64,000 bases of DNA from SAR92 clade bacterium (GTDB taxonomy: Bacteria; Pseudomonadota; Gammaproteobacteria; Pseudomonadales; Porticoccaceae): the NCBI GenBank assembly GCA_014381985.1, contig JACNKP010000058.1, positions 1 to 64,000 of the forward strand, in the 5' to 3' direction. The translations under genes and the position numbers were made by a program. Positions 3,100 through 59,678 of this stretch are shown here, piece after piece; positions within the stretch are counted from its first letter, which is position 1, and every line of letters starts with the position of its first letter. The notes under the pieces are model-generated. The model was given only the letters and a program-made list of their open reading frames with translations. It was not told the DNA's origin and searched no databases.

Positions 3100-4872
3100 T
3101 TAATAGGTACGAATTTTAGGTTCAAAGGGTTCACGGGTTTTCAAGGTAAAGTTTACTGGTCGCTTGCCTATTTCCTTACTTCCCGGAAAGTAAATGGAAT
3201 GGCACAACCAGTTCTCATCATCACGTTCCTGGAAGTCTTCTCTAGCATGGGCGCCCCTACTTTCCGTGCGGCCCTCAGCAGAGATGGCTGTGGCATAGGC
3301 TGTTTCAAACAGGTTCTGTAATTCAAGAGCTTCAAGTCTGGCTGTATTGAACGAGTTACTCTTGTCGTCAAGATAGACATTTTCAACCCGCAGACGAAGC
3401 TCATCAAGCTTTTCAATACCCTGTTTCATGTAATCGCCACGCCGGAACACACCAAAATAATTCTGCATAATGGTCTGCAATTCAGCCCTTAATACAGCGG
3501 CGTTCTCACCGTCCGAAGACTGATTAATTCTGTTCAAGCCGACCATAGCCCGCTGGATATCTGCCTCAGTCGCTTCTTTAAGCGTAATACCTTCGCTCAG
3601 TTGCTTCTCGATAAAGATACCGGAAGCACGACCAAAGACCACCAAATCAAGAAGCGAATTGCCGCCCAAACGGTTAGCGCCATGCACAGAAACACAGGCC
3701 GCTTCGCCACAGGCATAAAAGCCCTCAATGACCTTATCCTTACCCTCACGATCGATCGTTAGAGCCTGACCGTCAACATTAGTCGGGATTCCGCCCATCA
3801 TGTAGTGACAGGTAGGCACAACAGGGATGGGCTCTTTAACTGGGTCTGCATGAGCAAAGGTTCGAGATAGTTCAAGAATGCCCGGTAGTTTTGAATTGAG
3901 CATCTCTTCACCGAGATGGTCGAGCTTAAGGTAAACGTGATCCCCATCTGGCCCACAACCTCGACCTTCAAGAATCTCCAGCACCATTGAACGAGCCACA
4001 ACATCTCGACCTGCAAGATCTTTGGCGTTCGGCGCATAGCGCTCCATAAATCGCTCGCCATCTTTGTTAATGAGGTAACCGCCTTCTCCCCGGCACCCCT
4101 CTGTAACAAGCGTTCCAGCACCATGAATGCCGGTGGGATGGAACTGCCACATCTCAATATCTTGGACAGGGAAACCAGCCCGCAATGCCATGCCAACACC
4201 ATCTCCCGTACAGATATGCGCGTTTGTGGTTGATGCATAAATACGACCAGCGCCACCAGTCGCGAACACTGTAGCCTTTGATTCCACAAAAACGGTCTCT
4301 CCGGTTTCAATATCGATAGCAACCACACCAACGACAGCACCGTCGGCATTTTTGACGATATCAACGGCAAACCACTCATTAAGAAAGACAGTTTTGTTCT
4401 TTAAATTCCCTTGGTAAAGGGTGTGCAACAACGCGTGACCGGTTCTATCCGCAGCCGCGCATGTTCGCGCTGCCTGTCCACCGGCACCATAGTCTTTGGA
4501 CTGACCACCGAAGGGCCGCTGATAAATCCGCCCTTCTTCTGTTCGTGAAAATGGCAAGCCCATGTGCTCAAGCTCAAAAATCGCCTCAGGACCGGTCTGG
4601 CACATATATTCTATGGCCTCTTGGTCACCAATATAATCAGACCCTTTAATCGTGTCATACATGTGCCACTGCCACTGATCATTTGGGTCATCGCTTGCTA
4701 TGGCGCACGTAATGCCCCCTTGCGCAGACACCGTGTGAGATCGCGTGGGAAATACCTTGGTAATAACTGCTGTGTTGTAGCCTGATTGCGCCAGCTGCAG
4801 AGCTGCTCGCATTCCTGACCCACCGCCGCCAACAATGACAGCGTCAAAACTCATTTTTCTTAAACTACCCAT
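3100..4872 (-). CDS. sdhA: Succinate dehydrogenase flavoprotein subunit
   Basis: SdhA oxidises succinate to fumarate with covalently bound FAD. The protein shows the dinucleotide motif [14 protein letters not shown] near the N-terminus and [11 protein letters not shown], whose His (residue 46 of the long form) carries the FAD. It also shows the substrate-site segments [27 protein letters not shown] and [15 protein letters not shown]. Length is about 588 residues as in E. coli. Two starts are possible: ATG at 4872 (MGSLRKMSF) or ATG at 4854 ([10 protein letters not shown]). The second matches the usual family N-terminus better, but neither has a strong ribosome binding site. It lies 4 bp after sdhD and 25 bp before sdhB. 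Confidence 0.98.
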
Positions 4873-41133: not shown

Positions 41134-42582
41134 TTGAGCGAACAATTCATCCAACTAGCTGTATTTTGTGCAGTCCTCGGTGCTATCGCCGTGCTTACAT
41201 ACATCAAATGTAAGGGGGAAAGTAGACGTTCAACGGACTCTAATAAAGAGTATTTCCTGGCTGGTGGTGGACTAACATGGGTCTTTGTTGCCGGCTCGAT
41301 CACACTCACCAACTTAAGTACAGACCAGCTAGTGGGTATGAATGGCAACCAAATGCTGCTGTTGGCCCTTTGGGAGCTCTCAGGCTTTGTCGGGCTTATG
41401 ATTTTAGCCAAAGTCTTCTTGCCGGTGTACTACAGAAACAATTGCACCACCACCACCGAACTTTTAGAGCGACGCTACAACAGTAAACATATCCGCGCGC
41501 TTGTATCGACGATGTTTTTGTTCATCAATGTATTTGTTTTTCAACCAGCCGTAATCTATACCGGCGCGCTCTTCATGATCTCCATGACAGGTATCCAAGC
41601 AGACCTCTTAACCATTGCCGCTGCCTTCGCCATTTTTGGCGCAGCCTATGCGGTACTTGGCGGACTGCGCGCAGTTGCAGTGTCAGACACCTATGGTGGG
41701 GTTTTGGTGTTAGCTATGGGCCTACTAGTGGTGGTGCTCTCTCTGATGGCCATCAACTTTGACTTTAGTGGTATTCCTGCCGAGCGATTAACCTTGATTG
41801 GCGATAGCGCCTCGCCTGTACCATGGCATACCCTATTGACCGGCATGTTTCTCATTCAAATTTTTTACTGGAGTACTAACCAAACCATTACACAGCGCGC
41901 TATGGCGGCGCCAACGGTTAAAGAGGCGCAAAAAGGCGTTTATGCCGCCGCTTTTATTCGCGTGGTATTTATCCCCTCCATGGTCGTTATCCCAGGGATA
42001 GTCGCATTTAAATTGTATGGCGATATCGGTGATCAGGCCTATGGCCGTATCGTTGGTGATTTACTGCCTGGCTGGTTATCTGGAATATTCGCAGCAGCCA
42101 TCGCAGCAGCCGTACTTAGCTCATTTAACAGTATGGTCAACTCCTCTGCCGCCATGTACGTTTGTGACCTACACGAGGCGTACATCAATGATAAACCCAA
42201 CCTGCGCGCACTCAGCGGCGGTGCCACAGTGATCTTTGTGATCATTGCTGTCTGTATGGTGCCGATTTACGCGCAATCTGACAGTATTATTAATTTACTA
42301 CAGGAACTCTGGGGCCTAATCAGCATGCCAATACTGGCCTGCTTTGCCGTTGGGTTATTGTTCCGCAACGTAGATTATCGTGCCGCCATTACCGCGGTGA
42401 TTGCGGGAGTGCTCATGTACGCCTGTTTTATCTGGATATGGATGCCTCTGCACTATATTCACATGATGTTTTTCACGTTCTTTGCCTGCGTAGCCATCGC
42501 TCTTTTCGTCAACCGATTTATTTTGGGTAATAGAGCCGAGTTTATCGGCTTGGAAACAGAAGAATTGCAACAAACAACGTAA
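41134..42582 (+). CDS. Sodium:solute symporter (SSS family), putative galactoside uptake
   Basis: This 482-residue membrane transporter has about 13 hydrophobic segments and SSS landmarks: EYFLAGGGLTWVFVAGSITL near the N-terminus, the sodium-site region VLGGLRAVAVSDTYGG, and AAAIAAAVLSSFNSMVNSSA. The start is TTG at 41134 with AGGAG at a good distance; no better start is visible. It sits 16 bp after GH42 beta-galactosidase, so sugar import is likely, with a galactoside or galactose as substrate. A second, more distant SSS gene lies at 46361-48091 beside alpha-galactosidase. Confidence 0.9.
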   Translation: MSEQFIQLAVFCAVLGAIAVLTYIKCKGESRRSTDSNKEYFLAGGGLTWVFVAGSITLTNLSTDQLVGMNGNQMLLLALWELSGFVGLMILAKVFLPVYYRNNCTTTTELLERRYNSKHIRALVSTMFLFINVFVFQPAVIYTGALFMISMTGIQADLLTIAAAFAIFGAAYAVLGGLRAVAVSDTYGGVLVLAMGLLVVVLSLMAINFDFSGIPAERLTLIGDSASPVPWHTLLTGMFLIQIFYWSTNQTITQRAMAAPTVKEAQKGVYAAAFIRVVFIPSMVVIPGIVAFKLYGDIGDQAYGRIVGDLLPGWLSGIFAAAIAAAVLSSFNSMVNSSAAMYVCDLHEAYINDKPNLRALSGGATVIFVIIAVCMVPIYAQSDSIINLLQELWGLISMPILACFAVGLLFRNVDYRAAITAVIAGVLMYACFIWIWMPLHYIHMMFFTFFACVAIALFVNRFILGNRAEFIGLETEELQQTT

Positions 42583-46360: not shown

Positions 46361-48091
46361 CTATGCACTAAAACCACGTCTGTTGATGTAATACCACCAA
46401 ACTGCGACGTTTAGCCCGGCCAAACAACCTATTAGGGGCACAAATAACACACTGAACCCACCCACTACACCGACGGGTGAAAACAACAAATATAGACCAA
46501 CAACGCACGACATTAAACTCGCTGCGCAAGGTACTCCATAACGCCAGGGTTGCATGTCGACTTCATGACTCCGTTTATAGGTCCAATTATGTGCGGTGGG
46601 ACGGTAATGCCCCACCAATAACATGATGCCAACCTCTATAAAAAACAGCACTGCGTAAAGATGGATAAAGTGCAAGGTAACAATGTCATCCAAGACAAAC
46701 TTTAATAACCCGTAGGCGACTACATGGAAGCCAATCACTAACTTAGGTCCTAGCGCAGGAACCCGCTTTGAGAAGAGACCAACAATCACGATGGCAATGA
46801 CCGGAATATTATAAAAGCCGGTGAAGATACGAATAATCTGCCATAGGCCATCCGGCGCAAATTGCAGCAGTGGCGCCACAACAAACGAAAATAACGCAAT
46901 CACAATAGAGGCCGTTTTAGCCACTTTTAAAATCTGCTGATCTGTGATCTCACCACCGTTTCTGGCCTTTTTCCACGGTTCATAAACGTCTAAACAAAAT
47001 AGTGTTGCTGCACTGTTTAGCAGTGAGTTAAACGAGCTAAACACCGCGCCAAGCAGGACCGCCAGAAAAAATCCTGAAGCATAGGTTGGTAGCACATCAC
47101 GAATGAGTCTTGGGTACGCAAGATCAATTGAACTAAGGCCATCAGGACTGCTCGGACCACCATAGAGATGAAAAGCAATGACACCGGGAATCATCATCAT
47201 GATCGGCACCAGAACTTTGAAAAATCCTGAAAAGAGTACACCCTTCTGGCCTTCTGCAAGGCTCTTGGCGCCAAGGGTTCGCTGGATCACGTACTGATTA
47301 GCACACCAATAAAACAAGTTGGCAAAAATCATTCCAGTAAATAAGGTGGCAAACGGAGTAGGATCGTCAGAAGAACCAATCGCGTTTAGTTTTTCCGTAT
47401 TGGTGGTCGAAATAATTTTTAATCCCGACACCACACTGCCCTCCCCAAGCAGTGACAACCCCAGCACGGGTACAGCAATGCCTATGAGCAAAAGACCAAT
47501 ACCATTTAGAGTGTCGGAAACAGCAACCGCTCTGAGGCCACCAAACACTGCATAGACACCACCCACGCTGCCGATAACAACGATAGTCAATACCAATGAC
47601 CGACTGTACGAAATGTTAAACAGGCTAGGAACATCGAATAACTGCAGTACGGCAATAGACCCTGAGTACAGCACCGACGGAATAGTCACCAAGCCGTAGC
47701 CAAGCATAAATAAAATAACCGTGAGCCGTCTGACGTCATCATCAAAACGATTATTTAAGAATTCAGGTAAGGTTGAGAATGCTCCTGCCAAATAGCGCGG
47801 CAGAAAAACAAACGCCATACATATAGTGGCGAACGCTGCTGTCACTTCCCAACCCATACTACTCAAGTTAAACCCATAGGCTGAGCCATTGAGCCCTATC
47901 AGTTGCTCGGCCGAGAGGTTTGTTAATAACAGGGAGCCAGCAATAAAAACAGCACTTAGATTTCGTCCAGCTAAAAAGTAACCGTCTCTACTATTAGATT
48001 CATCTTTAGACTGGCGATACGAAATAAAAGCCACCAGCGCCATGAAAAAAGCGCAGCTAACTAAGGTTAAAGTGATTTCTTGATCAATCAT
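46361..48091 (-). CDS. Sodium:solute symporter (SSS family), SglT-like
   Basis: This 576-residue membrane transporter resembles sodium/glucose-galactose cotransporters. It has GYFLAGRNLSAVFIAGSLLL and LSAEQLIGLNGSAY, then VFGGLRAVAVSDTLNGIG and GAVFSSFNSLLNSAATLF, with about 14 hydrophobic segments. The frame is open to 48103 from a TTG. The ATG at 48091 (MIDQEITLTLV) with GGGG seven bases upstream is preferred. GH36 alpha-galactosidase follows on the same strand, so an alpha-galactoside or free galactose is the likely substrate. It is divergent from the ceramidase gene. Confidence 0.9.
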   Translation of the reverse strand: MIDQEITLTLVSCAFFMALVAFISYRQSKDESNSRDGYFLAGRNLSAVFIAGSLLLTNLSAEQLIGLNGSAYGFNLSSMGWEVTAAFATICMAFVFLPRYLAGAFSTLPEFLNNRFDDDVRRLTVILFMLGYGLVTIPSVLYSGSIAVLQLFDVPSLFNISYSRSLVLTIVVIGSVGGVYAVFGGLRAVAVSDTLNGIGLLLIGIAVPVLGLSLLGEGSVVSGLKIISTTNTEKLNAIGSSDDPTPFATLFTGMIFANLFYWCANQYVIQRTLGAKSLAEGQKGVLFSGFFKVLVPIMMMIPGVIAFHLYGGPSSPDGLSSIDLAYPRLIRDVLPTYASGFFLAVLLGAVFSSFNSLLNSAATLFCLDVYEPWKKARNGGEITDQQILKVAKTASIVIALFSFVVAPLLQFAPDGLWQIIRIFTGFYNIPVIAIVIVGLFSKRVPALGPKLVIGFHVVAYGLLKFVLDDIVTLHFIHLYAVLFFIEVGIMLLVGHYRPTAHNWTYKRSHEVDMQPWRYGVPCAASLMSCVVGLYLLFSPVGVVGGFSVLFVPLIGCLAGLNVAVWWYYINRRGFSA

Positions 48092-48263
48092 GCATGGCCC
48101 CAAACGTTCGTGCCCGATTATATATCTTTATGTCGGCGCAGGGCCCTAAAATTCTCTCTTATTCAAACCGCAAATATCTTGATAGACGGACATTAAAAAA
48201 ACTCTCAATAGGCTCAGGCTAAGCTGTCTAGATGTTAAGGCTACCACCCTGTAGACTGGCAAA

Positions 48264-50300
48264 ATGATTAAACTTCTTATTAAGTCTTGCCTCAGCAACA
48301 CCAATATCAATTTCCAACGCGGGCTTCTATGCCTTTTGATACTGCTGACTGGTGGCTTAAGCGCGGCAGACACTTCACACCCCTACCTTGTTGGTCGTGG
48401 AATGTCCGATATTACGGGGCCCAGTTATGGTATTCAGATGTGGGGGTTTGGCCGAGAAGATCAACTGACGGAAGGTCTCCATATTCGCCAATGGTCGCGT
48501 GCTTTTGTCATAGCGCAATCTGATGAGCCTACCAAACGTCTGGTGTTCGTTAGCGCCGATCTGGGCAGTATAGAACACCATATAACCTTGGCTGTTATTG
48601 ATAGATTACAGCAACAATACGGTGACACTTATACGATAAACAATGTCATTATCAGCGCTACCCACACCCATGCAGGCCCAGGCGGTTATTGGCATTCACG
48701 TTCTGATCTTGGTCTAGACGGCGGGTTTTACCCCGAACACTTTGCCGCCATTGTTGAGGGTATTACCGCGTCGATCGTTAGTGCCCATAAGGATCTCGAG
48801 CCTGGCAATATTTATCTAGGAAAAGGTAACCTACATAATGCTGGCGCTAACCGGTCGGTGTCGGCTTATCTTGAAAATCCTCAGATTGAGCGCGACCAGT
48901 ATGTTGAAAATACTCCGACTGAAATGACCCTTCTGAAGTTTACAGATGACTCAGGGGACATAGGAATGCTTAACTGGTATGCACTGCACCCCACCGCAAT
49001 GAATTACTACAATCGCTTAATCTCTGGTGATCACAAAGGTTATGCTGCATTACAAATGGAACGAATGCGCGGTAGTCGCTACGACAATGACAGTGATTTT
49101 GTTGCCGCCTTCGCTCAGGCAGACCCAGGAGATGTCACCCCGAATACAAATTTGAATAATACCGGGCCGGGGGGAACGGATGTAGAAACCACACAAATTA
49201 TGGGCGACCGCCAGCTGCAGATGGCCCTTCAGCTATTTGGCAATGCTCAGGAAGCCCTCACAGGACCCATTGAAACACGCCAGATATATGTCGACCTTTC
49301 TGACTACCTGGTGACCGACAGATTTACGCATGCCGGCCCACAAACAACCTGCCCATCTGCCTATGGTTATTCCTTTGCCGGAGGGTCAACCGAAGACGGC
49401 GGCGGGCATTTCTTGTTTGAAGAAGGCATGACAGAACAAAGTGTTTTTTTAGACCTTCTGATTGGCTGGTTAACTGGCGCACCTAAATGGACCGAGGCTG
49501 TCAAAAACTGTCAGGCGCCTAAGGCTATTTTGTTTGAAACCGGCAGTGGAAAGCCACCACTTCAATCTCAAATACGCTCAGTGACCATAGCCCGCGTTGG
49601 CCAGTTTGTCATATTGGCGATGCCCTCCGAGATAACGACTATGGCCGGTCGACGATTGCGAACAGCAGTGATGAAAGAGCTTGGCGACTGGGCACACAAT
49701 ATAGTCCTTGCGGGATATTCCAATGGCTATGCGGGGTATGTCACTACACCTGAAGAATATCTACTACAACAGTACGAGGGCGGCCACACCTTACATGGGC
49801 GCTGGACACTGCCGGCCTATGAACAAATTGCCAGCCATCTCGCTAGCGCGTTGAATTCCGGTAGCGCTATTGAATCAAGCGCCATTTATGATGATTGGCG
49901 AGGTAAGTCATTCACAACCACCTTACACAGCGGTGCAAAGAACATGCCACCCAAGGGTGCACACTATGGCGACCCCCTTCCCTCAAGTAAAACGCAATAC
50001 CGCAAAGGTGAGACTGTTGTGGCCGAGTTCTGGTCGAACAACCCTACTGACAACTATATGACCGGAAATAATTACATGCAGGTTGAGAGCAAAACCTCAA
50101 CCGGCTGGCAAACAATCGCAACAGATAGCGACTGGCAAACTACTGTCAGGTGGCGTAAAGAAGGTGGGTCTTTTGTCGCCAAACTGAGCTGGAAAACACC
50201 AACAAACATGCAGGCTGGCGAATACCGGTTAACGCACCAAGGCTATGACCCGCAGGGTGATGTCTTTAGCGGCGTTTCACGTAAAATCCAGATTCATTAG
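48264..50300 (+). CDS. Secreted neutral/alkaline ceramidase
   Basis: Neutral ceramidases cleave the amide bond of ceramides to sphingoid base plus fatty acid. The 678-residue length is normal. A signal peptide (hydrophobic core LLCLLILLTGGLSAAD) is followed by YLVGRGMSDITGPSYGIQMW. The zinc-site segment ISATHTHAGPGGYWH lies near residue 130. Then come NWYALHPTAMN, DPGDVTPN and AGYSNGYAGYVTTPEEY, with an Ig-like C-terminal domain. It would act in the periplasm or outside the cell. Upstream is a divergent SSS gene. Downstream are an NTF2-like gene and the taurine cluster, which raises the idea that aminolipid sulfonates are the real substrate (see findings). Confidence 0.93.
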   Translation: MIKLLIKSCLSNTNINFQRGLLCLLILLTGGLSAADTSHPYLVGRGMSDITGPSYGIQMWGFGREDQLTEGLHIRQWSRAFVIAQSDEPTKRLVFVSADLGSIEHHITLAVIDRLQQQYGDTYTINNVIISATHTHAGPGGYWHSRSDLGLDGGFYPEHFAAIVEGITASIVSAHKDLEPGNIYLGKGNLHNAGANRSVSAYLENPQIERDQYVENTPTEMTLLKFTDDSGDIGMLNWYALHPTAMNYYNRLISGDHKGYAALQMERMRGSRYDNDSDFVAAFAQADPGDVTPNTNLNNTGPGGTDVETTQIMGDRQLQMALQLFGNAQEALTGPIETRQIYVDLSDYLVTDRFTHAGPQTTCPSAYGYSFAGGSTEDGGGHFLFEEGMTEQSVFLDLLIGWLTGAPKWTEAVKNCQAPKAILFETGSGKPPLQSQIRSVTIARVGQFVILAMPSEITTMAGRRLRTAVMKELGDWAHNIVLAGYSNGYAGYVTTPEEYLLQQYEGGHTLHGRWTLPAYEQIASHLASALNSGSAIESSAIYDDWRGKSFTTTLHSGAKNMPPKGAHYGDPLPSSKTQYRKGETVVAEFWSNNPTDNYMTGNNYMQVESKTSTGWQTIATDSDWQTTVRWRKEGGSFVAKLSWKTPTNMQAGEYRLTHQGYDPQGDVFSGVSRKIQIH

Positions 50301-50477: not shown

Positions 50478-50945
50478 ATGAAGAATGATCCTCAAGTAAA
50501 TCACTACCGCGACATTGAACAACTGATTTTTAGTTACGCGGACTATATCGATAACGGAGACTTTGAAGCCGTGGCTGAATTATTTGAGCATGGTCAAATC
50601 TGCGGCTCACCAGGGCTTTGGTGTAATCGCGGCTATGACCAGGTCCTCAAGATGAATCAACGCTCAGTAAAATTACATGAGGACACCGGCACCCCCTGCA
50701 CCAAACATGTTGTCAGCAACCTGACCATTGAGATCAACAAGCAGGCGGATACCGCCTCCTCTAAGGCGTATTTTACCGTCTTTCAAGCACTACCAAACTT
50801 CCCTCTCCAGGCGATCATTTCAGGTTGTTATCATGACAACTTTTTAAATGCCGAAGGTCAATGGCGATTTCGAGAACGAAACATCGTCAGTGAATTTTTT
50901 GGTGATCTCTCTCATCACCTAAACGCCGAAATGCTTGAGCAATAG
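50478..50945 (+). CDS. NTF2-like / SnoaL-type protein
   Basis: This 155-residue soluble protein has a cone-shaped NTF2-like fold by motif. The helix YRDIEQLIFSYADYIDNGDF is followed by AVAELFEHGQI. The TKHVVSNLTIEINKQADTAS strand, the SKAYFTVFQALPNF strand and the GCYHDNFLNAEGQWRFRERN region come next. This is the pattern of SnoaL_4 proteins, which include isomerases, hydrolases and dioxygenase small subunits. Catalytic identity cannot be told. It lies between the ceramidase and tpa with gaps of 177 and 154 bp, so it may be its own transcript. Confidence 0.8.
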   Translation: MKNDPQVNHYRDIEQLIFSYADYIDNGDFEAVAELFEHGQICGSPGLWCNRGYDQVLKMNQRSVKLHEDTGTPCTKHVVSNLTIEINKQADTASSKAYFTVFQALPNFPLQAIISGCYHDNFLNAEGQWRFRERNIVSEFFGDLSHHLNAEMLEQ

Positions 50946-51028
50946 CCGCCTAATCACACATGTAGTTAGCCACTCTGCAAGAGGCTCTATTCCACCTGAA
51001 GTTCACTGGTAGCATCAATTAGGTCCGG

Positions 51029-51038
51029 TTGGTTCTAG
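51029..51038 (+). promoter_or_regulatory. Candidate TauR operator upstream of tpa
   Basis: TTGGTTCTAG lies about 60 bp before tpa and nearly repeats the CTGGTTCTAC found upstream of xsc. It agrees in part with the TauR repeat CTGGACYTAA that I recall from Rhodobacter capsulatus (6 of 10 positions). It is a short match, so it is only a candidate. Confidence 0.35.
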
Positions 51039-51099: not shown

Positions 51100-52497
51100 A
51101 TGAACCATACAGATATTTCAGCAGAACCTACCGATATTATCGGCACAGATCGGGCCAGCGTATGGCACCATCTGACACCCCATAGCAACCTAAAAACAAC
51201 TGACCCTCTTATTATAAAAAGCGGTCTAGGTATGCGTGTGACCGATATTAAAGGCAAAGAATATCTTGATGCCACGTCTGGCGGAGTGTGGTCGGTAAAC
51301 GTTGGCTACGGCCGCGAAAAGATCGCCAATGCTGTGCGTGACCAATTGATGGAAATGTGTTACTTCGCCAACAGTGCCGGTAGCGTCCCAGGAGCCCTAT
51401 TTGCCGAGAAGTTGTTGACAAAAATACCTGAAATAGGCGCCGGCCAAGGTAAGGTTTATTATTCCAACTCCGGTTCAGAGGCCAACGAAAAGGCCTATAA
51501 AATGGTGCGCCAACTGGCACATATTAATGGCGATGGGCGCAAACACAAGGTTATCTTCCGTGACCGTGACTATCACGGCACTACGATCACTGCGCTAAGT
51601 TCGTCAGGGCAATCGCAACGAAAAGAGCAATATGGCCCGTTTACCCCTGGGTTTTCTGAGTTCAGCCACTGCTGCTGCTATCGCTGCCCATTTGGTAAAA
51701 CCTATGGCAGCTGCGATATTGAGTGCGCTAAAGATCTGGAAACCGCGATTTTACGCGAGGGTGCAGATACGGTCGGCTCTGTTGTCTTGGAGCCTATTAC
51801 GGCGGGTGGTGGCGTTATCCCTCCAGTACCTGAGTACTTTCCTATTATTCAGGAGATCTGCAAAAAATATGACGTGCTACTACATATTGATGAAGTTGTT
51901 TGCGGTTTGGGACGTACAGGCAAATGGTTTGGCTTCCAGCATTATGGGGTTAAACCCGACATGGTAACCATGGCTAAAGGTCTGGCCAGTGGGTATGCGG
52001 CTATATCTTGTACCATTACGACAGACGCTATCTTTAACCAGTTTGCTTTGGGAGATGCCGGATCTTTGGGCTACTTTAGAGATATTAGTACCTTTGGAGG
52101 CTGCACTGCGGGGCCTGCGGCTGGGCTTGCTAACGTTGAGATTATCGAACAAGAAAACCTGCTGGATAATGTCGTGCAAATGGGTGACCACCTAAATGAA
52201 CGTCTTTTAGAGTTAAAGGGCAAGTATCCCGTGGTCGGTGATGTCCGCGGCAAAGGCCTATTTGCTGGAGTAGAGCTCGTCCAAGACCGACAATCTAAAC
52301 AACCTATGGATGAAAGTTATGCGATGAAACTAGCCGCCCACTGTATGGAACAAGGTGTTCTTATCGGCCGGACGAATCGCAGCTTTCAAGAGTTCAATAA
52401 CACGCTCTGCCTCAGCCCGGCGCTGATTGCCACACGAAGAGACATTGATGATATAGTCGATGCAATTGACAACGCGTTAGCCGCAAACCCATTATAA
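51100..52497 (+). CDS. tpa: Taurine:pyruvate aminotransferase (class III)
   Basis: Tpa transfers the amino group of taurine to pyruvate, giving sulfoacetaldehyde and alanine. The 465 residues form a fold-type I, class III PLP enzyme: SNSGSEANEKAYKMVR, DYHGTTITALSSSG, and LHIDEVVCGLGRTGKW precede the PLP lysine Lys293 in VTMAKGLASGY. A cysteine-rich segment, residues 191-209 (CCCYRCPFGKTYGSCDIEC), resembles one that I recall from known Tpa proteins. The choice of taurine over other omega-amino acids rests mainly on context, because the exporter, TauR, xsc and pta follow. It starts an operon with the YeiH-type gene 21 bp downstream. Confidence 0.85.
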   Translation: MNHTDISAEPTDIIGTDRASVWHHLTPHSNLKTTDPLIIKSGLGMRVTDIKGKEYLDATSGGVWSVNVGYGREKIANAVRDQLMEMCYFANSAGSVPGALFAEKLLTKIPEIGAGQGKVYYSNSGSEANEKAYKMVRQLAHINGDGRKHKVIFRDRDYHGTTITALSSSGQSQRKEQYGPFTPGFSEFSHCCCYRCPFGKTYGSCDIECAKDLETAILREGADTVGSVVLEPITAGGGVIPPVPEYFPIIQEICKKYDVLLHIDEVVCGLGRTGKWFGFQHYGVKPDMVTMAKGLASGYAAISCTITTDAIFNQFALGDAGSLGYFRDISTFGGCTAGPAAGLANVEIIEQENLLDNVVQMGDHLNERLLELKGKYPVVGDVRGKGLFAGVELVQDRQSKQPMDESYAMKLAAHCMEQGVLIGRTNRSFQEFNNTLCLSPALIATRRDIDDIVDAIDNALAANPL

Positions 52498-52518
52498 CCC
52501 TCGCCAAAGGATACAAAT

Positions 52519-53508
52519 ATGGATACTGCTTTATCCCGCCATAAAAATAAATTACGTGGGATTATTGCCTGTATCTTAGTCGCCCTAGCGTCTAAGTTTC
52601 TGTCTCTAAACTATGGCGCACCGACGATGCTATTCGCACTCATATTGGGAATGTCAGTGAATTTCCTTAATGAATCTGAATATTCTATTCCTGGTATAGA
52701 TTTTTGTTCAACGACAGTATTGCGCTTTGGGGTTATTTTGCTAGGTGCAAAAATTCTCTTTGGTGATGTCCTTGCTCTGGGTTGGGTAACCGCGTTGGTT
52801 GTGGTTGGTTGCATGTTTGCTACCATCCTGTTTGGCGCACTTATCGCCCGGGCTCTCAAACTGGACTATCGATTTGGAATGTTATCTGGCGGCGCCGTCG
52901 GAATATGCGGTATCGCTGCAGCGATGACCTTGTCCTCGGTAATGCCCAAAAGTAAAGAGATGGAGCAATACACCCTTTTAACAGTGATCATGATGGCAAC
53001 ATTTGGTGCCGTCGCCATGGTTTCCTATCCTGTTTTAGCAAGCTTTCTCGGTTTAAGCAGCCAGCAGATAGGTATATTCATTGGCGGATCCATCCATGAT
53101 GTATCCCACGTCATTGGCGCTGGATACTCCATTTCTGAAGACGTTGGCTATATCGCGATGATTGTTAAAATGCTGCGCGTTGCCCTACTAATACCAATAG
53201 CCTGGATCTTTCTAATAATTTTTGCCAAACAGCGCGCTGCATCCGAAGGCCGCACAAAACTATTACCACCCTACTTTTTATTGGGCTTTGTCGCGCTCGC
53301 TGTTATCAACAATATGGGATGGATACCCCCGTCCACAGCCCAAATTATGAACCAAACTTCTCAAGATTGCTTCGTGATCGCCATCGCAGCTTTAGGCATG
53401 AAAACCTCCTTTAAAGGCTTGCTGGATATCGGCTGGAGGCCGGCAGCAATGGTCTTGTCTGAGAGTCTATTCCTTGGCGGATTAGTTCTTGCTTGGGTTA
53501 TGTTATAA
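52519..53508 (+). CDS. YeiH-type putative anion (sulfite/sulfate) exporter
   Basis: This 329-residue inner-membrane protein has about ten hydrophobic segments. Family landmarks are TMLFALILGMSVNFL, GAVGICGIAAAMTLSSVMP and FIGGSIHDVSHVIGAGYSIS. It belongs to COG2855 (YeiH). A member of this family, TauZ, is linked to taurine use in Paracoccus and is proposed to export sulfate or sulfite. AAAGGA precedes the ATG. It is 21 bp after tpa and 53 bp before the AGCS transporter, so disposal of the sulfite released by Xsc is its likely job here. Confidence 0.87.
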   Translation: MDTALSRHKNKLRGIIACILVALASKFLSLNYGAPTMLFALILGMSVNFLNESEYSIPGIDFCSTTVLRFGVILLGAKILFGDVLALGWVTALVVVGCMFATILFGALIARALKLDYRFGMLSGGAVGICGIAAAMTLSSVMPKSKEMEQYTLLTVIMMATFGAVAMVSYPVLASFLGLSSQQIGIFIGGSIHDVSHVIGAGYSISEDVGYIAMIVKMLRVALLIPIAWIFLIIFAKQRAASEGRTKLLPPYFLLGFVALAVINNMGWIPPSTAQIMNQTSQDCFVIAIAALGMKTSFKGLLDIGWRPAAMVLSESLFLGGLVLAWVML

Positions 53509-53561
53509 AGGTAGATCTCTACATTAACGGAAATTTCGATTCTCACTGTAAGGTACAGGTT

Positions 53562-55133
53562 ATGAATAATAATGAAGACGTCACCAACAGCGTTATTGGC
53601 AACCAAAGTAGCCTGCTTAAACTTAAATATTTCCTATCAACTTCTTTAAGCGTTTTTATTATTTCATTTTTTTCACCGATGGCTTTTGCTCAACAGGGCA
53701 TTGACGAATTCATTAACAATTCAGTCCAACCGATCACAAGCTTTATATCCGCTATCGTTTTTTACAGTGTGTCGGTATTTGGCACCGACATCCCTCTGGT
53801 CGTCGCCTGGCTCGTCTTTGCCGCAGTGTATTTTACGCTGTACTTTAAATTTATTAATTTACGCGGTTTTAGTCACGCTATTAAATTAGTCCGAGGGAGT
53901 GATTCAAATACCAAAGATCCTGGCGAGGTAACTCACTTTCAAGCACTAACCACAGCTGTCTCAGGAACCGTTGGCATTGGTAATATTGGTGGCGTCGCGG
54001 TCGCAATATCCATAGGTGGGCCAGGCGCAACCTTTTGGATCATTGTCGCTGGCATACTAAGCATGTCGACTAAATTCATAGAGTGCACCTTAGGTGTTTT
54101 ACTGCGTCGTGAGAATCCTGATGGTTCAGTCTCAGGCGGCCCCATGTATTATTTAGAATATGCCTTTGCCGAAAAAGGCTGGAATAAAGCCGGCGCCTTC
54201 ATTGGCCGCTTTTATGCCCTAGGTATAGTGCTTGGCTGTTTAGGCATTGGCAATATGTTCCAATCCAACCAAGCCTACATGCAATTCGTCAATGTCACTG
54301 GCGGTGCAGAAGGAAGTTGGTTTGCAGACAAGGCGTGGCTGTTCGGGCTTTTACTCGGAGCAGTGGTTGGCTTAGTCATACTGGGGGGTATTCAAAGCAT
54401 TGCCCGGGTAACCAGCAAGATCGTTCCTTTTATGGCAATACTTTACTGTGTCAGCGCCATAACTATTATTGGAATGAACTACGAAGCTATTCCTTATGCG
54501 ATCAACGCCATTATTAGCGGTGCGTTCAGTCCAGAAGGCATGAGTGGTGGAGCCATTGGTGTAATGATTATCGGCTTCCAACGGGCCGTGTTTTCAAACG
54601 AGGCGGGTATCGGGTCTGCATCTATCGCCCACTCGGCTGTCCGCACAAAAGAACCCATTACTGAAGGTTATGTGTCCCTGCTAGAGCCCTTTATTGATAC
54701 CGTGGTTATCTGCACCTTAACCGCGTTAGTCATCGTGACTACTTTCTACTATGAACCCTCCTTTGCGCAAGGTCTTGGGGGTATTGAAATGACATCTGCA
54801 GCCTTCGCCAGAAATATATCTTGGTCTCCTTATTTAATCGCCATTGCCGGAATGCTCTTTGCATTTTCTACGATGATCGCGTGGGCGTACTACGGATTAA
54901 AAGGTTGGACCTACCTAGTGGGTGAAAAGGTCTGGGCGAGCAATCTGTTTAAGTTGGTTTTTTGTTTATTTGTCGCCCTAGGCTGCAGTATTCAGCTTGA
55001 TGCCGTTTTAGACTTTTCAGATGCCTTGGTATTCCTAATTTGTGTGCCCAATATTATTGGCCTGTACATGTTAGCGCCCTTAGTTAAAAGAGAGCTAACC
55101 AAGTACAACCGTAAACACATCGAAGGGAAATAA
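53562..55133 (+). CDS. Alanine/glycine:cation symporter (AGCS family), putative taurine or alanine carrier
   Basis: This is a sodium:amino acid symporter of the DAACS-like AGCS family with about 11 membrane spans. Landmarks are TAVSGTVGIGNIGGVAVAIS, SGGPMYYLEYAF, GFQRAVFSNEAGIGSASIAH and FSTMIAWAYYGLKGWTYLVG. The frame is open back to 53493, which would overlap the exporter gene. The ATG at 53562 (MNNNEDVTNS) has AAGG nine bases upstream and leaves 523 residues, so I prefer it. No TauABC or TauKLM transporter is present, so taurine uptake is a fair guess. Handling the alanine made by Tpa is the alternative. Confidence 0.88.
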   Translation: MNNNEDVTNSVIGNQSSLLKLKYFLSTSLSVFIISFFSPMAFAQQGIDEFINNSVQPITSFISAIVFYSVSVFGTDIPLVVAWLVFAAVYFTLYFKFINLRGFSHAIKLVRGSDSNTKDPGEVTHFQALTTAVSGTVGIGNIGGVAVAISIGGPGATFWIIVAGILSMSTKFIECTLGVLLRRENPDGSVSGGPMYYLEYAFAEKGWNKAGAFIGRFYALGIVLGCLGIGNMFQSNQAYMQFVNVTGGAEGSWFADKAWLFGLLLGAVVGLVILGGIQSIARVTSKIVPFMAILYCVSAITIIGMNYEAIPYAINAIISGAFSPEGMSGGAIGVMIIGFQRAVFSNEAGIGSASIAHSAVRTKEPITEGYVSLLEPFIDTVVICTLTALVIVTTFYYEPSFAQGLGGIEMTSAAFARNISWSPYLIAIAGMLFAFSTMIAWAYYGLKGWTYLVGEKVWASNLFKLVFCLFVALGCSIQLDAVLDFSDALVFLICVPNIIGLYMLAPLVKRELTKYNRKHIEGK

Positions 55134-55156
55134 CACCTAAGGCGTGACAATCATAT

Positions 55157-55189
55157 AAAAGCGGTTATATTACCCCATTAACCGCTTTT
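55157..55189 (+). terminator. 11-bp inverted repeat between the AGCS gene and tauR
   Basis: AAAAGCGGTTA (55157-55167) and TAACCGCTTTT (55179-55189) form a perfect 11-bp stem with an 11-base loop and a short T-rich tail. It can terminate the tpa-exporter-AGCS transcript. It lies only 17 bp before the tauR ATG, so it could also act as an operator or leader hairpin for tauR. Confidence 0.6.
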
Positions 55190-55205
55190 ATTTAGGCTAT
55201 TAACC

Positions 55206-56678
55206 ATGTCTCTAGACGCGCTATTCCACCTCGACGCAAATAGCGAGCACAGCCTGCAAAAGCAGATTATTGAGCAAATTACCCGCGCCATCGTTAATGG
55301 TAATCTCCTCACCGATCGCCCTTTACCCTCTAGCCGCAATCTATCAAGTCAGCTTAAAGTCGGTCGCAACACGGTTATTCTGGCCTACGAGCGATTAGTT
55401 AGCGACGGCTACTTGATTTCCAAAGAGCGCAGCGGCTACTTTGTTAATCCAGAGATTTTACAAGGCTATGCCCAAGCTCCGACCGAGACTGAATCAGAAA
55501 AAGGCCCCTATCAATCCGACTGGGCAAAGCGGATCAAACTAGAACCCTCTAGGTTTGCCAATATAGAAAAACCCAGGGATTGGCAACGCTACCCCTACCC
55601 CTTTATTTATGGACAAATAGGCACCGACTTATTTCCTTTGAACAACTGGCGTGAATGCTGTCGCGACGCAGTCAGTGTGCAAGCCATTCAGAGTTGGTCG
55701 GTGGATCAGTCTGATACTGATGACCCTCTCTTAATCGAACAAATACAGAAAAGGCTACTGCCTAGACGAGGTGTATGGGCCAATGCAGACGAAATTTTAA
55801 TCACAGTGGGTGCTCAGCACGCGCTCTACTTGCTGGCCGAAGTGCTGTTCGACAAAAACAGCATCATTGGTTTAGAAGACCCCGGTTACGTTGATGTGCG
55901 CAACATAGTATCCCTAGGTAACAGCACGATTAAACCGTTACCGGTCAATCACCAAGGTTTAATTGTTAACAACAATATAAACGACTGTGACTATATCTAC
56001 GTCACTCCCAGTCACCAGTCGCCAACGACCGTCACCATGCCGTTGGAAAATCGTCGAGCCCTACTTGATCAGGCTGCAAGCAACGACATTATCTTGGTGG
56101 AAGACGACTACGAAAGCGAATCTAACTACCAATCTAACCCCCTACCGGCATTAAAAAGTTTAGATGTTAATGATCGCGTGTTGTATATCGGCAGCCTTTC
56201 CAAAACCATATCTGCGGGCCTGAGAATGGGCTATGTGGTTGGGCCCGCTAAACTCATCTCAGAGCTGCGAGCGCTGAGGCGACTAATGTTGCGCCACCCT
56301 GCAGCTAACAATCAACACTCAATGGCTCTATTTTTATCTCGGGGCTATTACGAATCTTTGGTAAAAAATCTACACCGCACCTATCAAGACAGGTTCCAAA
56401 TAATGTCTGAGGAACTTAGTAATATAATGCCGGTATCGGTAGCGACCACTGCATTTGGCGGGTCATCATTTTGGATTGAAGGTCCAAAAACCCTGGATGC
56501 TCGAGTACTTGCCTTGGAAGCTAAAAAGATAGGTATTATTATTGAACCTGGGGACCTGCATTTTTATGGCCCAACGCCCCCTAAGCATTTCTTTAGGTTG
56601 GGTTTTTCTGCCATAAAAACAGAGCACATAAGGCCCGGAATAAAGTTACTTGCAGATCTAATCACCCAGCTAACCTAG
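55206..56678 (+). CDS. tauR: MocR-type (GntR-aminotransferase) regulator, TauR-like
   Basis: This 490-residue transcription factor has an N-terminal GntR-type winged helix (LQKQIIEQITRAIVNGNLL, LPSSRNLSSQLKVGRNTVIL) fused to a class I aminotransferase-like domain. The PLP lysine is Lys333 in LYIGSLSKTISAG, and EDPGYVDVRN and VEDDYESESNY are further cofactor-site segments. In Rhodobacter, TauR of this MocR class activates taurine genes in response to taurine. Position between the tpa and xsc-pta units supports the same role. It starts 17 bp after an inverted repeat. Confidence 0.88.
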   Translation: MSLDALFHLDANSEHSLQKQIIEQITRAIVNGNLLTDRPLPSSRNLSSQLKVGRNTVILAYERLVSDGYLISKERSGYFVNPEILQGYAQAPTETESEKGPYQSDWAKRIKLEPSRFANIEKPRDWQRYPYPFIYGQIGTDLFPLNNWRECCRDAVSVQAIQSWSVDQSDTDDPLLIEQIQKRLLPRRGVWANADEILITVGAQHALYLLAEVLFDKNSIIGLEDPGYVDVRNIVSLGNSTIKPLPVNHQGLIVNNNINDCDYIYVTPSHQSPTTVTMPLENRRALLDQAASNDIILVEDDYESESNYQSNPLPALKSLDVNDRVLYIGSLSKTISAGLRMGYVVGPAKLISELRALRRLMLRHPAANNQHSMALFLSRGYYESLVKNLHRTYQDRFQIMSEELSNIMPVSVATTAFGGSSFWIEGPKTLDARVLALEAKKIGIIIEPGDLHFYGPTPPKHFFRLGFSAIKTEHIRPGIKLLADLITQLT

Positions 56679-56679
56679 G

Positions 56680-56712
56680 CTGGAACAATAGAACGGTATA
56701 AACTGGTTCTAC
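56680..56712 (+). promoter_or_regulatory. Candidate TauR operator upstream of xsc
   Basis: CTGGAACAAT (56680-56689) and CTGGTTCTAC (56703-56712) are two imperfect copies of the TauR-like repeat in the same orientation. They also contain TAGAAC (56689-56694) and GTTCTA (56706-56711) as an inverted repeat. MocR regulators usually bind paired repeats. The second copy nearly matches the site before tpa. Confidence 0.4.
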
Positions 56713-56811
56713 CCTTTATCCGGCCGACTTACTAAGCTACGTCTAGAATTGTGGTGGTTTAATTTTCGGCTTCACAAACAGACACTTTAAAATTTAACAC
56801 AGGGCAATATC

Positions 56812-58575
56812 ATGGCACGTATGACACCTAGCGAAGCATTCGTTGAAACACTAGTGGCCAATGGCGTCACAAAGATTTTTGGCATTATGGGCTCGGCATT
56901 TATGGATGCCATGGATATTTTTGCCCCAGCGGGCATCGAACTCGTTCCAGTAGTCCATGAGCAGGGCGCTGCTCATATGGCCGACGGTTACGCTCGTGCG
57001 TCCGGTGATCACGGCGTCGTCATTGGTCAAAATGGGCCTGGAGTTTCAAACTGTGTCACGGGTATTGCTGCCGCTTTTTGGGCGCACTCCCCGGTCGTTA
57101 TGATTACACCGGAAGCCGGCACTATGAGCATTGGCTTGGGCGGATTTCAAGAAGCGCAGCAGCTTCCTATGTTTCAAGAATTCACCAAATACCAGGGACA
57201 TGTAAACAACCCCAAACGCATTGCGGAGTTTACCGCTCGCTGCTTTGATCGAGCCATGTCAGAAATTGGACCCACACAACTGAACATCCCGCGTGATTTC
57301 TTTTACGGAGATATTGATATAGACATCCCGCAACCACAGCGCTTGGATCGTGGTCCCGGAGGTGAAAAGAGTCTGGGAGAAGCGGCTTATCTATTATCTA
57401 CAGCTAAATTTCCTGTCATGATCTCGGGTGGCGGCGTCGTCATGGCCGATGCTGTTGAAGAATGCAAAGCCCTCGCTGAATTACTTGGCGCACCCGTTGT
57501 TAATAGTTATCAGCACAATGACTCGTTCCCCGCTAGCCACCCTCTATGGTGTGGCCCTTTAGGTTATCAAGGGTCAAAAGCTGGTATGAAGCTCATATCC
57601 AAAGCTGACGTGGTCTTGGTCTTAGGCTCGCGCCTAGGACCTTTTGGCACCCTCCCTCAGTACGAGCTCGAGTATTGGCCTGAAAATGCAAAAATCATTC
57701 AGATTGATGCAGATCACAAAATGTTGGGGCTGGTGAAAAAAATATCTGTCGGTATCTGTGGTGACGCGAAAGCTACTGCGGTTGCTTTAACCGACCGACT
57801 ATCCAAGCTAACACTTGATTGTCAGACGAATCGAGATGAGCGTATCGCTGAGATCACGGCTCAAAAACAGGCGTGGGAAACAGAATTAGACGAGTGGACC
57901 CATGAAAAAGACCCCTACAGCTTAGATATGATTGAAGAGGCTGCTAGCGAAGATGGCGAATGGTTACACCCAAGGCAAGTTCTGCGTGAACTAGAAAATG
58001 CTATGCCAGAAGACGTTATGGTTTCTACCGATATCGGCAACATTAACTCTGTGGCTCACAGCTACCTGCGCTTTGAAAAGCCTCGCAGTTTTTTTGCCCC
58101 TATGAGTTTTGGTAACTGTGGCTATGCCTTACCCACGATCATAGGTGCAAAGGCGGCAGCTCCACACCGACCCGCCATTGCCTATGCTGGTGACGGCGCC
58201 TGGGGTATGAGCATGTCTGAATTAATGACCTCTGTTCGTCACGACATTCCTGTTACAGCCGTGGTATTTCATAATCGTGACTGGGGTGCAGAAAAGAAGA
58301 ACCAAGTTGAGTTCTATGATCGCCGCTTTGTCGCCGCCGAACTGGTTAGCGAAAGCTGGGCTGGTATTGCACAAGCGATGGGTGCAGAAGGCATTATCGT
58401 CGACAAATTGGAAAATGTTGGGCCGGCTCTTAAGAAAGCCATAGACCTACAAATGAATGAAGGTAAAAGCACCGTTATTGAGATTATGTGTACCCGAGAA
58501 CTGGGCGATCCCTTCCGACGTGATGCGTTATCCAAGCCAGTACGTTACCTTGATAAATACAAGGACTACGTTTAG
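56812..58575 (+). CDS. xsc: Sulfoacetaldehyde acetyltransferase
   Basis: Xsc converts sulfoacetaldehyde and phosphate to acetyl phosphate and sulfite using thiamine diphosphate. The 587 residues match the family. The catalytic Glu50 lies in VVHEQGAAHMADGYARASG, with the phosphate-site region QNGPGVSNCVTG after it. The diphosphate-binding motif starts near residue 460 (GDGAWGMSMSEL through VVFHNRDWG). The sequence looks like Xsc, not acetolactate synthase, notably the RDWGAEKKNQVEFYDRRFV segment. It follows tauR and precedes pta by 98 bp on the same strand, as in other taurine clusters. Confidence 0.95.
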   Translation: MARMTPSEAFVETLVANGVTKIFGIMGSAFMDAMDIFAPAGIELVPVVHEQGAAHMADGYARASGDHGVVIGQNGPGVSNCVTGIAAAFWAHSPVVMITPEAGTMSIGLGGFQEAQQLPMFQEFTKYQGHVNNPKRIAEFTARCFDRAMSEIGPTQLNIPRDFFYGDIDIDIPQPQRLDRGPGGEKSLGEAAYLLSTAKFPVMISGGGVVMADAVEECKALAELLGAPVVNSYQHNDSFPASHPLWCGPLGYQGSKAGMKLISKADVVLVLGSRLGPFGTLPQYELEYWPENAKIIQIDADHKMLGLVKKISVGICGDAKATAVALTDRLSKLTLDCQTNRDERIAEITAQKQAWETELDEWTHEKDPYSLDMIEEAASEDGEWLHPRQVLRELENAMPEDVMVSTDIGNINSVAHSYLRFEKPRSFFAPMSFGNCGYALPTIIGAKAAAPHRPAIAYAGDGAWGMSMSELMTSVRHDIPVTAVVFHNRDWGAEKKNQVEFYDRRFVAAELVSESWAGIAQAMGAEGIIVDKLENVGPALKKAIDLQMNEGKSTVIEIMCTRELGDPFRRDALSKPVRYLDKYKDYV

Positions 58576-58673
58576 CGTCAATGAGAAGTACCCTTATCTT
58601 ACTCAGAGTTTACTTGGGGTACACTGACCTCCCGTTTGGGAAACATCTCTATATATTATAAGCTAAGCGCATT

Positions 58674-59678
58674 ATGTCTATATTAAATACAATTATTGAG
58701 AGAGCGAAAACGACTGCAGCTAAACTTGTTTTCGCCGAAGGCCAGGATCCTCGGGTCATCCAAGCGGCTTATAAGATTGTTAATGATGGAATAGCGCAAG
58801 TCACAGTGCTTGGGACTGAGTCAGAAATCACCCAAGCATGTCGCTTAGCGGGCGTAGAAGCATGCAATTTTGATGTGATTGATCCTTTGTCATCTCCCCT
58901 TATTACTGATTTTGCTCGCAATTTCTGTGAGGTACGCAAAGCGCAAGACCTCACCATGGATGCTGCCGCTGACATCATGAAAAACAGGCTGTATTTCGCC
59001 AACATGATGTGTCATCAAGGATTAGTTGATGGCGTCGTCGCAGGAAGTATTGCCTCAACCAGTGATGTGCTTCGCGCCTCGCTGCAGGTAATTGGTACTG
59101 CAAAAGGTATCAAAACGGCGAGTAGCAGCATGCTTTTAGACCTTGCAAGCCCTTCTCCTGCTGGCTACTCATCACTCCTATTTGCCGACTGTGCCGTTAA
59201 TCCCAACCCCGATACCGAGCAATTGGTTGATATAGCCATCGCATCGGCTAATACCTATTACACATTGACCGGTAAAAAGCCCAAGGTTGCCTTTTTATCC
59301 TTTGCAACGCACGGCAGTGCTCAGCACGAATCACTAGGTAAAATCAGACAGGCAGCGGCACTGACCGTATCAAAAGTAGAGGCTGAAGGGCTGGATATTA
59401 TTGTGGGTGGGGAAATTCAGGCCGATGCAGCAATAGTGCCTAACATCGCTGCAAAAAAATGTCCTGATAGTGCATTAAAAGGAGAGGCTAACGTTTTAAT
59501 TTTTCCCGATCTCAACTCGGGTAATATTTCCTACAAACTGGTGCAAAGGCTATCTGACATAGCCGTGTATGGCCCTCTTCTACAGGGTTTAGCAAAGCCG
59601 GTTAATGACTTATCCCGCGGTTGCAGCGCAGAAGATATATACGGAGTCGCCGCCATTACTGCATGCCAGGCAATCTAA
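58674..59678 (+). CDS. pta: Phosphate acetyltransferase
   Basis: Pta turns the acetyl phosphate made by Xsc into acetyl-CoA. The 334 residues are the short PTA_PTB form with no DRTGG or N-terminal regulatory domain. Family segments include AKLVFAEGQDPRVIQAAYKI, GLVDGVVAGSIASTSDVLRA, ASSSMLLDL, KVAFLSFATHGSA and NVLIFPDLNSGNISYKLVQR. A nearby ackA is absent, which fits use of acetyl phosphate for acetyl-CoA, not ATP. No clear ribosome binding site precedes the ATG. The gene ends at a strong terminator. Confidence 0.95.
   Translation: MSILNTIIERAKTTAAKLVFAEGQDPRVIQAAYKIVNDGIAQVTVLGTESEITQACRLAGVEACNFDVIDPLSSPLITDFARNFCEVRKAQDLTMDAAADIMKNRLYFANMMCHQGLVDGVVAGSIASTSDVLRASLQVIGTAKGIKTASSSMLLDLASPSPAGYSSLLFADCAVNPNPDTEQLVDIAIASANTYYTLTGKKPKVAFLSFATHGSAQHESLGKIRQAAALTVSKVEAEGLDIIVGGEIQADAAIVPNIAAKKCPDSALKGEANVLIFPDLNSGNISYKLVQRLSDIAVYGPLLQGLAKPVNDLSRGCSAEDIYGVAAITACQAI

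Follow-up and report, generated by a model that had tools for sequence, protein, structure and literature searches.

Gene content and predicted regulation of the taurine locus

We analyzed a 64,000-nucleotide stretch of DNA (hereafter the window; positions 1 to 64,000 of contig JACNKP010000058.1, assembly GCA_014381985.1) from a SAR92 clade bacterium of the Porticoccaceae, whose genome comprises 2.5 Mb in 82 contigs and is 98% complete. The subject is a set of taurine genes at positions 51100-59678 and, within it, the gene of a sodium symporter of the AGCS family. The original prediction, made from the sequence alone, had placed six genes here, and all six were found on the + strand at these positions, in the order tpa, YeiH/TauZ-type exporter gene, AGCS gene, MocR-type regulator gene, xsc and pta. 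The same gene order occurs in SI054_bin69 (AGCS 92% identical) and in the isolate LSUCC0057 (75%), both of the Porticoccaceae/SAR92 group.

The first gene, tpa (51100..52497, +), encodes a class-III aminotransferase (PF00202, 306 bits). Among the 25 shown of 69 matching NCBIfam models, none exceeded its cut-off for this protein (the best, PRK07678.1, scored 464.5 versus a cut-off of 488); therefore, the name taurine:pyruvate aminotransferase (Tpa) rests on context, which includes a TauR-type operator upstream and synteny with L045, L047 and L085, three of the loci described below. The second gene (52519..53508, +) encodes a putative sulfite/sulfate exporter of the TauZ/YeiH type, so named from its family and from the company of xsc and pta: the product exceeded the cut-off of PF03601 (219 bits), fell under that of the YeiH model TIGR00698 (131.8 versus 232.6), and is 41% identical to a putative sulfate exporter adjoining xsc and pta in Paracoccus aminovorans. 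The last two genes encode sulfoacetaldehyde acetyltransferase (xsc, 56812..58575, +; TIGR03457, 1047.9 bits, cut-off 676.4) and phosphate acetyltransferase (pta, 58674..59678, +; TIGR00651, 324.4 bits, cut-off 311.2). In G159, a genome of the same genus, an acetate kinase gene follows xsc (L045:13553-14728), in the position taken by pta in the window.

The AGCS gene, encoding the proposed taurine importer, spans 53562..55133 (+). Its listed open reading frame could begin at TTG 53493; ATG 53562, which gives a protein of 523 amino acids and is preceded by a stretch resembling a ribosome-binding site (AAGG), looks the better start. Membership in the AGCS family was evident from TIGR00835 (377 bits versus a cut-off of 272.65) and PF01235 (393.5 versus 24). 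The regulator gene (55206..56678, +) encodes a protein matching both PF00392 (GntR DNA-binding) and PF00155 (aminotransferase-like) and 39% identical to a MocR-type protein adjoining xsc in P. aminovorans; on these domains and this likeness we propose that it is TauR. It also matched the NCBIfam PdxR model over the cut-off (349.8 versus 320), a label that we set aside on context and operators; this match speaks against the name TauR, not against the regulator architecture.

TauR of Rhodobacter capsulatus is reported to bind direct repeats of CTGGACYTAA (PMC5320631). In the window, the pattern CTGG-N19-YTGGNYYTA, a 23-nucleotide direct repeat, matched at two places only, versus 0.07 expected: before tpa (51006..51038, +; score 11 of 12) and before xsc (56680..56712, +; score 12 of 12). 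Such repeats, resembling CTGGACYTAA and preceding taurine genes, are predicted TauR operators. Between the AGCS gene and tauR, a hairpin (55155..55191, +; −19.4 kcal/mol for 55134-55205, z −4.17) is a possible terminator, although it is absent from a consensus terminator scan, whose limit its 11-nucleotide loop exceeds. Because of this strong hairpin, tpa, the exporter gene and the AGCS gene may form one transcription unit.

Genomic company of the AGCS subfamily

The original prediction had proposed looking for this type of AGCS protein together with tpa and xsc in other genomes, and the subfamily was indeed found to co-occur and to co-locate with them. In the order, 48 of 293 genomes had an AGCS match at E ≤ 1e-100, one per genome, and Xsc was matched in 7, six times at an identity of at least 80% and once (G131) at 45%, in a genome without such an AGCS. 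The six genomes with the closer Xsc (G000, G159, G135, G003, G031 and G047) are exactly those with the six best AGCS matches (72-100% identity), with distances of 74 bp to 19 kb between AGCS and xsc. The probability of this overlap by chance was 1.5 × 10−5 for six of six, 9 × 10−5 after removal of the window's genome and 0.002 by genus (4/4). Across 369 genomes of the class, xsc was found in 22 (21 over the cut-off), AGCS in 39 and both in 10 (p = 1.4 × 10−5); the six genomes with the best AGCS matches all carry xsc, as do 0 of the 26 with the weakest.

Gene neighborhoods were then compared. The best 80 of 579 AGCS relatives were kept, with their flanks, from a scan covering 84,980 species genomes, and the loci derived from them, together with stretches from further genomes, gave 118 distinct AGCS proteins, the window's included, after seven near-duplicate loci had been dropped; 10 of the 48 AGCS genomes of the order and 26 of the 39 of the class were not fetched with flanks. 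With neighbor thresholds of at least 54% for tpa, at least 60% for xsc and at least 50% for safD or sauS, applied within the fetched stretch, 25 of the 118 AGCS genes lay near at least one of these genes. The arrangement tpa-exporter-AGCS-MocR-xsc recurs in L045, L047, L085 and L092 (where tpa is truncated by the contig end), tpa, safD and a MocR gene stand beside AGCS in G272 and in three Vibrio loci, safD and a MocR gene do so in G249, and xsc lies near AGCS in Billgrantia and Halomonas. SafD exceeded the equivalog cut-off in all six proteins scanned, of 10 loci so labelled, and SauS in the single one scanned; in G272, safD is accompanied by the gene of a TauE/SafE-family protein, which has a homologue in two of the three Vibrio loci. 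As a control, 18 other AGCS loci were examined in the window's genome and in eight further genomes with a linked AGCS, and one of the 18 was linked. Members of the subfamily were present in records named SAR92/Porticoccaceae, Halieaceae, SAR86, Vibrio, Halomonas relatives and roseobacters. These data indicated that the picture of a local oddity, as originally drawn, was too narrow: this AGCS type is recurrent and widely spread.

In five loci outside the 118 (L097, L117, L118, L131 and L161), the AGCS gene was masked by a longer overlapping open reading frame, and these were examined separately. A TauD-like protein (48%) lies near AGCS in L131. In L097 one match is class-III aminotransferase-like (43% to tpa) and another is acetate kinase-like (38%), and no reference enzyme was matched near AGCS in L117, L118 and L161.

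Thirty further AGCS genes of the 118 have, within four genes, a protein at least 40% identical to the taurine dioxygenase TauD of Escherichia coli, and such proteins accounted for 30 of 840 near open reading frames versus 0 of 645 far ones. When seven TauD-like neighbors were scanned, four exceeded the taurine dioxygenase cut-off, two fell under it, and one was truncated by the coordinates used; one of the two under the cut-off (L153) is just short of the 40% limit and outside the 30. The positions that we take to bind iron and 2-oxoglutarate and to contact the sulfonate are kept in 28-29 of the 30 proteins. In the order, the E. coli TauD query matched 83 of 293 genomes, including 26 of the 48 with AGCS (p = 3 × 10−5), and in six order genomes TauD is 29-2264 bp from AGCS. 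Taurine is common to the Tpa-Xsc, Tpa-SafD and TauD routes; beyond it, no organic intermediate occurs in all three. Since the AGCS protein keeps company with routes that have only taurine in common, taurine is the best explanation of its substrate. We propose that this AGCS protein is probably a Na+:taurine symporter of the TauR regulon, a reading to which we give a probability of roughly 80%.

Nine loci combine the TauD-like dioxygenase with an aldehyde dehydrogenase (about 460 amino acids) and a class-I amidotransferase-like protein (about 235 amino acids) beside AGCS (L112:6783-11473, L060, L063, L067, L071, L110, L114, L116 and L154). This module could oxidize the aminoacetaldehyde made by TauD. 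A bolder and more tentative proposal, to which we would give somewhat less than even odds, is that the whole subfamily constitutes a third, widespread class of Na+-coupled taurine importers serving at least three routes (Xsc, SafD and TauD), and that many marine bacteria also possess an unrecognized TauD route in which aminoacetaldehyde is oxidized by the neighboring aldehyde dehydrogenase with its amidotransferase-like partner, so that taurine would yield carbon and nitrogen besides sulfur.

Predicted operators were also scanned across loci, as CTGG-N19-CTGGNYYTA with 23-nucleotide spacing and a score of 11 or 12 of 12. They were found before tpa in 11 of 20 regions, before xsc in 7 of 20, before mocR in 6 of 17 and before linked AGCS genes in 4 of 25; the regions derive partly from close relatives, and since the pattern was framed after the Vibrio and window promoters had been viewed, the p-values are descriptive and not blind. 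A spacing of 23 occurred in 22 of 65 regions, and other spacings in 0-3. The published 10-nucleotide TauR box alone, allowing at most one mismatch, was tried and discarded: it was enriched only before tpa (5/15) and at chance level before xsc, AGCS, mocR and safD, so only the 23-nucleotide spaced pair is specific. A universal stress protein gene (usp) lies directly upstream of AGCS in 20 of the 118 loci, including L104:9475-9906, which was checked with Pfam; 12 of these 20 loci come from records named as alphaproteobacteria. Predicted operators were found within 900 bp before 3 of 21 usp-AGCS units (0.46 expected, p = 0.011), all three in records named Shimia. L117 and L118 (Roseovarius nubinhibens and Defluviimonas), in both of which a universal stress protein gene precedes AGCS, are two more such units; they were added for matching the pattern, and with them the count is 5 of 23.

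Residues, rival carriers and the proposed mechanism

A maximum-likelihood tree was built from the 118 AGCS proteins and five outgroup AGCS proteins by a quick search without bootstrap, in which the long outgroup branches are unsure. The window AGCS belongs to a group of 14 rows with 95% support, and 10 rows of this group are linked to tpa, xsc, safD or sauS. Rows so linked required 12 label changes on the tree versus 23.1 with shuffled labels (as few in 0 of 500), and TauD-linked rows required 10 versus 27.0. Linkage thus appears repeatedly, in several distinct branches of the subfamily that differ in gene order.

The closest structural reference is MmAgcS (PDB 6cse/6csf), which belongs to the same family as the window AGCS (E = 1.8e-72 over residues 77-516). 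The subfamily keeps its N80, Q170, F273, N275 and E276 (MmAgcS numbering) and differs at T78 (I/V), A103 (G), S173 (Q) and G304 (E), which marks it as a separate subfamily; many of its members are linked to taurine genes, unlike the characterized AGCS carriers. Residues were counted in 115 rows, the divergent L081, L084 and L228 being excluded, against 18 other AGCS proteins. Position 139 (MmAgcS 78, which presumably touches the substrate) is I or V, with L in 16 rows, and T in 13 of the 18 others. All 115 rows carry G164 (A in others), F233, Q237 and E375 (G in others), and A342 replaces G. These subfamily letters are common to Xsc/SafD-linked, TauD-linked and unlinked members, L139 being confined to unlinked ones, which suggests one substrate class for the subfamily.

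Could the protein be an ordinary alanine or glycine carrier, supplying or recovering alanine or pyruvate for Tpa? The solved member of the family, MmAgcS, is an alanine symporter, Tpa makes alanine, and an alanine dehydrogenase gene (ald) adjoins AGCS in G272, stands two genes off in L090 and lies five genes upstream in G135. However, this explanation leaves the 30 TauD-like loci unaccounted for, as a TauD-like enzyme makes no alanine; positions conserved in MmAgcS and other AGCS proteins are altered in the subfamily; and other AGCS copies exist in the nine genomes checked, 17 of these 18 lying apart from taurine genes. Having weighed it, we place alanine transport second to taurine import and consider it unlikely.

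The substrate range is a different matter, as the subfamily may not be specific for taurine but carry small sulfonates or beta-amino acids generally (taurine, homotaurine, beta-alanine and isethionate). In Thalassospira marina, pyrimidine-reduction genes (preA and a hydrolase), whose pathway leads to beta-alanine, are found near the gene of an AGCS protein with 56% identity, in G003 it is SauS and not Tpa that adjoins AGCS, and the mammalian taurine carrier also takes beta-alanine. On the other side, the recurrent neighbors Tpa, Xsc, SafD and TauD act on taurine or on sulfoacetaldehyde derived from it, and the pyrimidine-linked case is a single one, seen without a systematic search for others. 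Such a general carrier is conceivable, though in our judgment doubtful.

The original prediction had described the usual taurine importers as absent, and a dedicated one elsewhere in the genome would have accounted for uptake. For TauABC this held: the E. coli TauA query had no match in the host genome at E ≤ 0.01, nor had the TauA-type model TIGR01729 at E ≤ 1e-10, a model that matched 6 of 14 control genomes including E. coli, one of them over the cut-off. For TRAP carriers it is less certain, as one DctP binding-protein gene lies on another contig; this protein, without an NCBIfam match at E ≤ 1e-40, is a candidate carrier only. SNF-family matches were found at two places in the genome, and the two SSS-family sodium symporters of the window (41134-42582 and 46361-48103) lie outside the taurine operon, in which AGCS, between the exporter and tauR, is the only importer, as predicted. 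Taurine might thus enter through the unlinked TRAP, an SNF or a nearby SSS carrier, with AGCS doing something else in the regulon. Yet the SSS proteins had no match in the fetched cluster stretches of L045, L047, L085 and L092 (which reach only 4.7 kb upstream of AGCS in L085 and 1.5 kb in L092). The cluster of each of these loci includes AGCS, and AGCS lies in the unit that follows the TauR-type operator. We regard entry by another carrier as very unlikely.

Under the preferred reading of AGCS as a taurine importer, a member of a distinct AGCS subfamily would carry taurine together with Na+ across the inner membrane, and Tpa would transfer the amino group to pyruvate. The resulting alanine would be returned to pyruvate, with release of ammonium, by Ald, whose gene is on another contig (C11:3777-4880; TIGR00518, 508 bits). 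Xsc would convert sulfoacetaldehyde to sulfite and acetyl phosphate, Pta would form acetyl-CoA, and the PF03601 protein would export the sulfur product. TauR would bind the 23-nucleotide direct repeats before tpa (for tpa-exporter-AGCS) and before xsc (for xsc-pta). The suggestion that the acetyl-CoA feeds tricarboxylic acid cycle genes at the left of the window stood in part: SdhA is present at 3100-4872, about 46 kb from the cluster, and no special link was seen. The locus is best explained as a taurine dissimilation regulon under TauR control in a SAR92-like (Porticoccaceae) marine gammaproteobacterium.

Several observations weigh against this interpretation. Sixty-three of the 118 members lack a tpa, xsc, safD, sauS or TauD-like neighbor, and 34 of these have at least 5 kb on each side; the sole linked control (L329, a 42% AGCS) is near tpa and a MocR gene in G047; and the host genome holds other carrier candidates (one TRAP, two SNF, two SSS and three other AGCS). 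Before unlinked AGCS genes the operator occurs at the background rate (1/91, 0.7 expected), and it is weak before safD (1/10) and sauS (0/3). TauD-like neighbors differ from E. coli TauD at N95 (I in 26/30) and S158 (G in 29/30), positions that we assume to be near the amine, so that they may act on a compound related to taurine instead. AGCS and xsc sit on separate contigs in 8 of the 10 genomes of the class that carry both. Finally, a search for TauA-like proteins in the 27 xsc genomes indicated that AGCS is no strict substitute for TauABC. At E ≤ 1e-10 such proteins were found in 5 of 15 xsc genomes with AGCS (all 5 among the 10 class genomes with both) versus 10 of 12 without it (p = 0.019), and at E ≤ 1e-20 in 5 of 15 versus 7 of 12 (p = 0.26), so that the outcome depends on the limit; the six order genomes had none versus 15 of 21 others at E ≤ 1e-10 (p = 0.003), a split chosen post hoc. 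G515 has tauABC-like genes next to xsc.

Other neighbors were observed as well. Just 5′ of tpa lies a gene for a SnoaL-like protein (50478-50945); SnoaL-like genes (34-41%) adjoin AGCS in L061, L062 and L064, and an NTF2-like gene is near xsc in P. aminovorans. A neutral ceramidase homologue (48264-50300; PF04734, 531 bits) lies beside the SSS-family symporter at 46361-48103, and L085 has only short ceramidase-like pieces upstream of tpa. Amidohydrolase_3 proteins near AGCS or tpa-AGCS (L048:5348-7114, L050:4303-6072, L090:4713-6509 and L091:14913-16694) are possibly hydrolases of N-acyltaurines or other amides. In G100, a SorA-like sulfite dehydrogenase (L054:9924-11285, under the model cut-off) and a cytochrome c (L054:9202-9897) stand beside AGCS and a MocR gene, and SorA-like proteins occur in G034 and G128 as well. 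On plasmid MP1 of Deinococcus radiodurans, an AGCS gene (about 58% identity; L303:8001-9431) lies between two insertion-sequence transposases.

Comparison with known taurine systems

No report naming an AGCS protein as a taurine carrier was found in the literature searched, outside which most subscription journals lie, and the marine taurine-use papers within it speak of TauABC. A survey of TauR regulons names TauABC, TauMLK, GabP and Opp among the transporters, and its main text does not contain the word AGCS (PMC5320631). One lead only comes from Ruegeria pomeroyi, in which the sodium:alanine symporter gene SPO2370 was up 3.0-fold with tpa and xsc in co-culture with Micromonas (PMC9870897). 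Taurine is described as a major source of carbon and energy for marine prokaryotes, and an ocean survey of the potential for its uptake counted tauABC (K15551, K10831 and K15552) (PMC6647121). If the AGCS subfamily imports taurine, bacteria relying on it would be missed in such counts, and a large subfamily would gain a substrate, its annotation in the plasmid records seen being no more than alanine or glycine symporter. A test is practical, as LSUCC0057 is a cultured SAR92 isolate with the same gene order.

The dissimilation pathway itself is already well known; what is new is the type of importer and its breadth. Like the TauR regulons described with TauABC or TauKLM, the window cluster has a TauR-like regulator, tpa, xsc, pta and a TauZ-type exporter, and its operator is close to their published CTGGACYTAA direct repeat; it differs in the importer, which is AGCS in place of TauABC or TauKLM (PMC5320631). 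The SafD/SafE system is matched by tpa, safD and a MocR gene in G272 and the three Vibrio loci; G272 also has a TauE/SafE-family gene, and two of the Vibrio loci have a homologue of it. Neptuniibacter caesariensis reportedly assimilates taurine nitrogen with SafD/SafE and has TauABC as its carrier, whereas the adjacent carrier in the SafD/SafE-like loci here is AGCS. The AGCS subfamily is probably an overlooked kind of taurine importer, and its TauD-linked loci extend the comparison to E. coli TauABCD: a TauD-like dioxygenase stands beside the importer in 30 loci, AGCS replaces TauABC, and 9 loci add an aldehyde dehydrogenase and a class-I amidotransferase-like protein.

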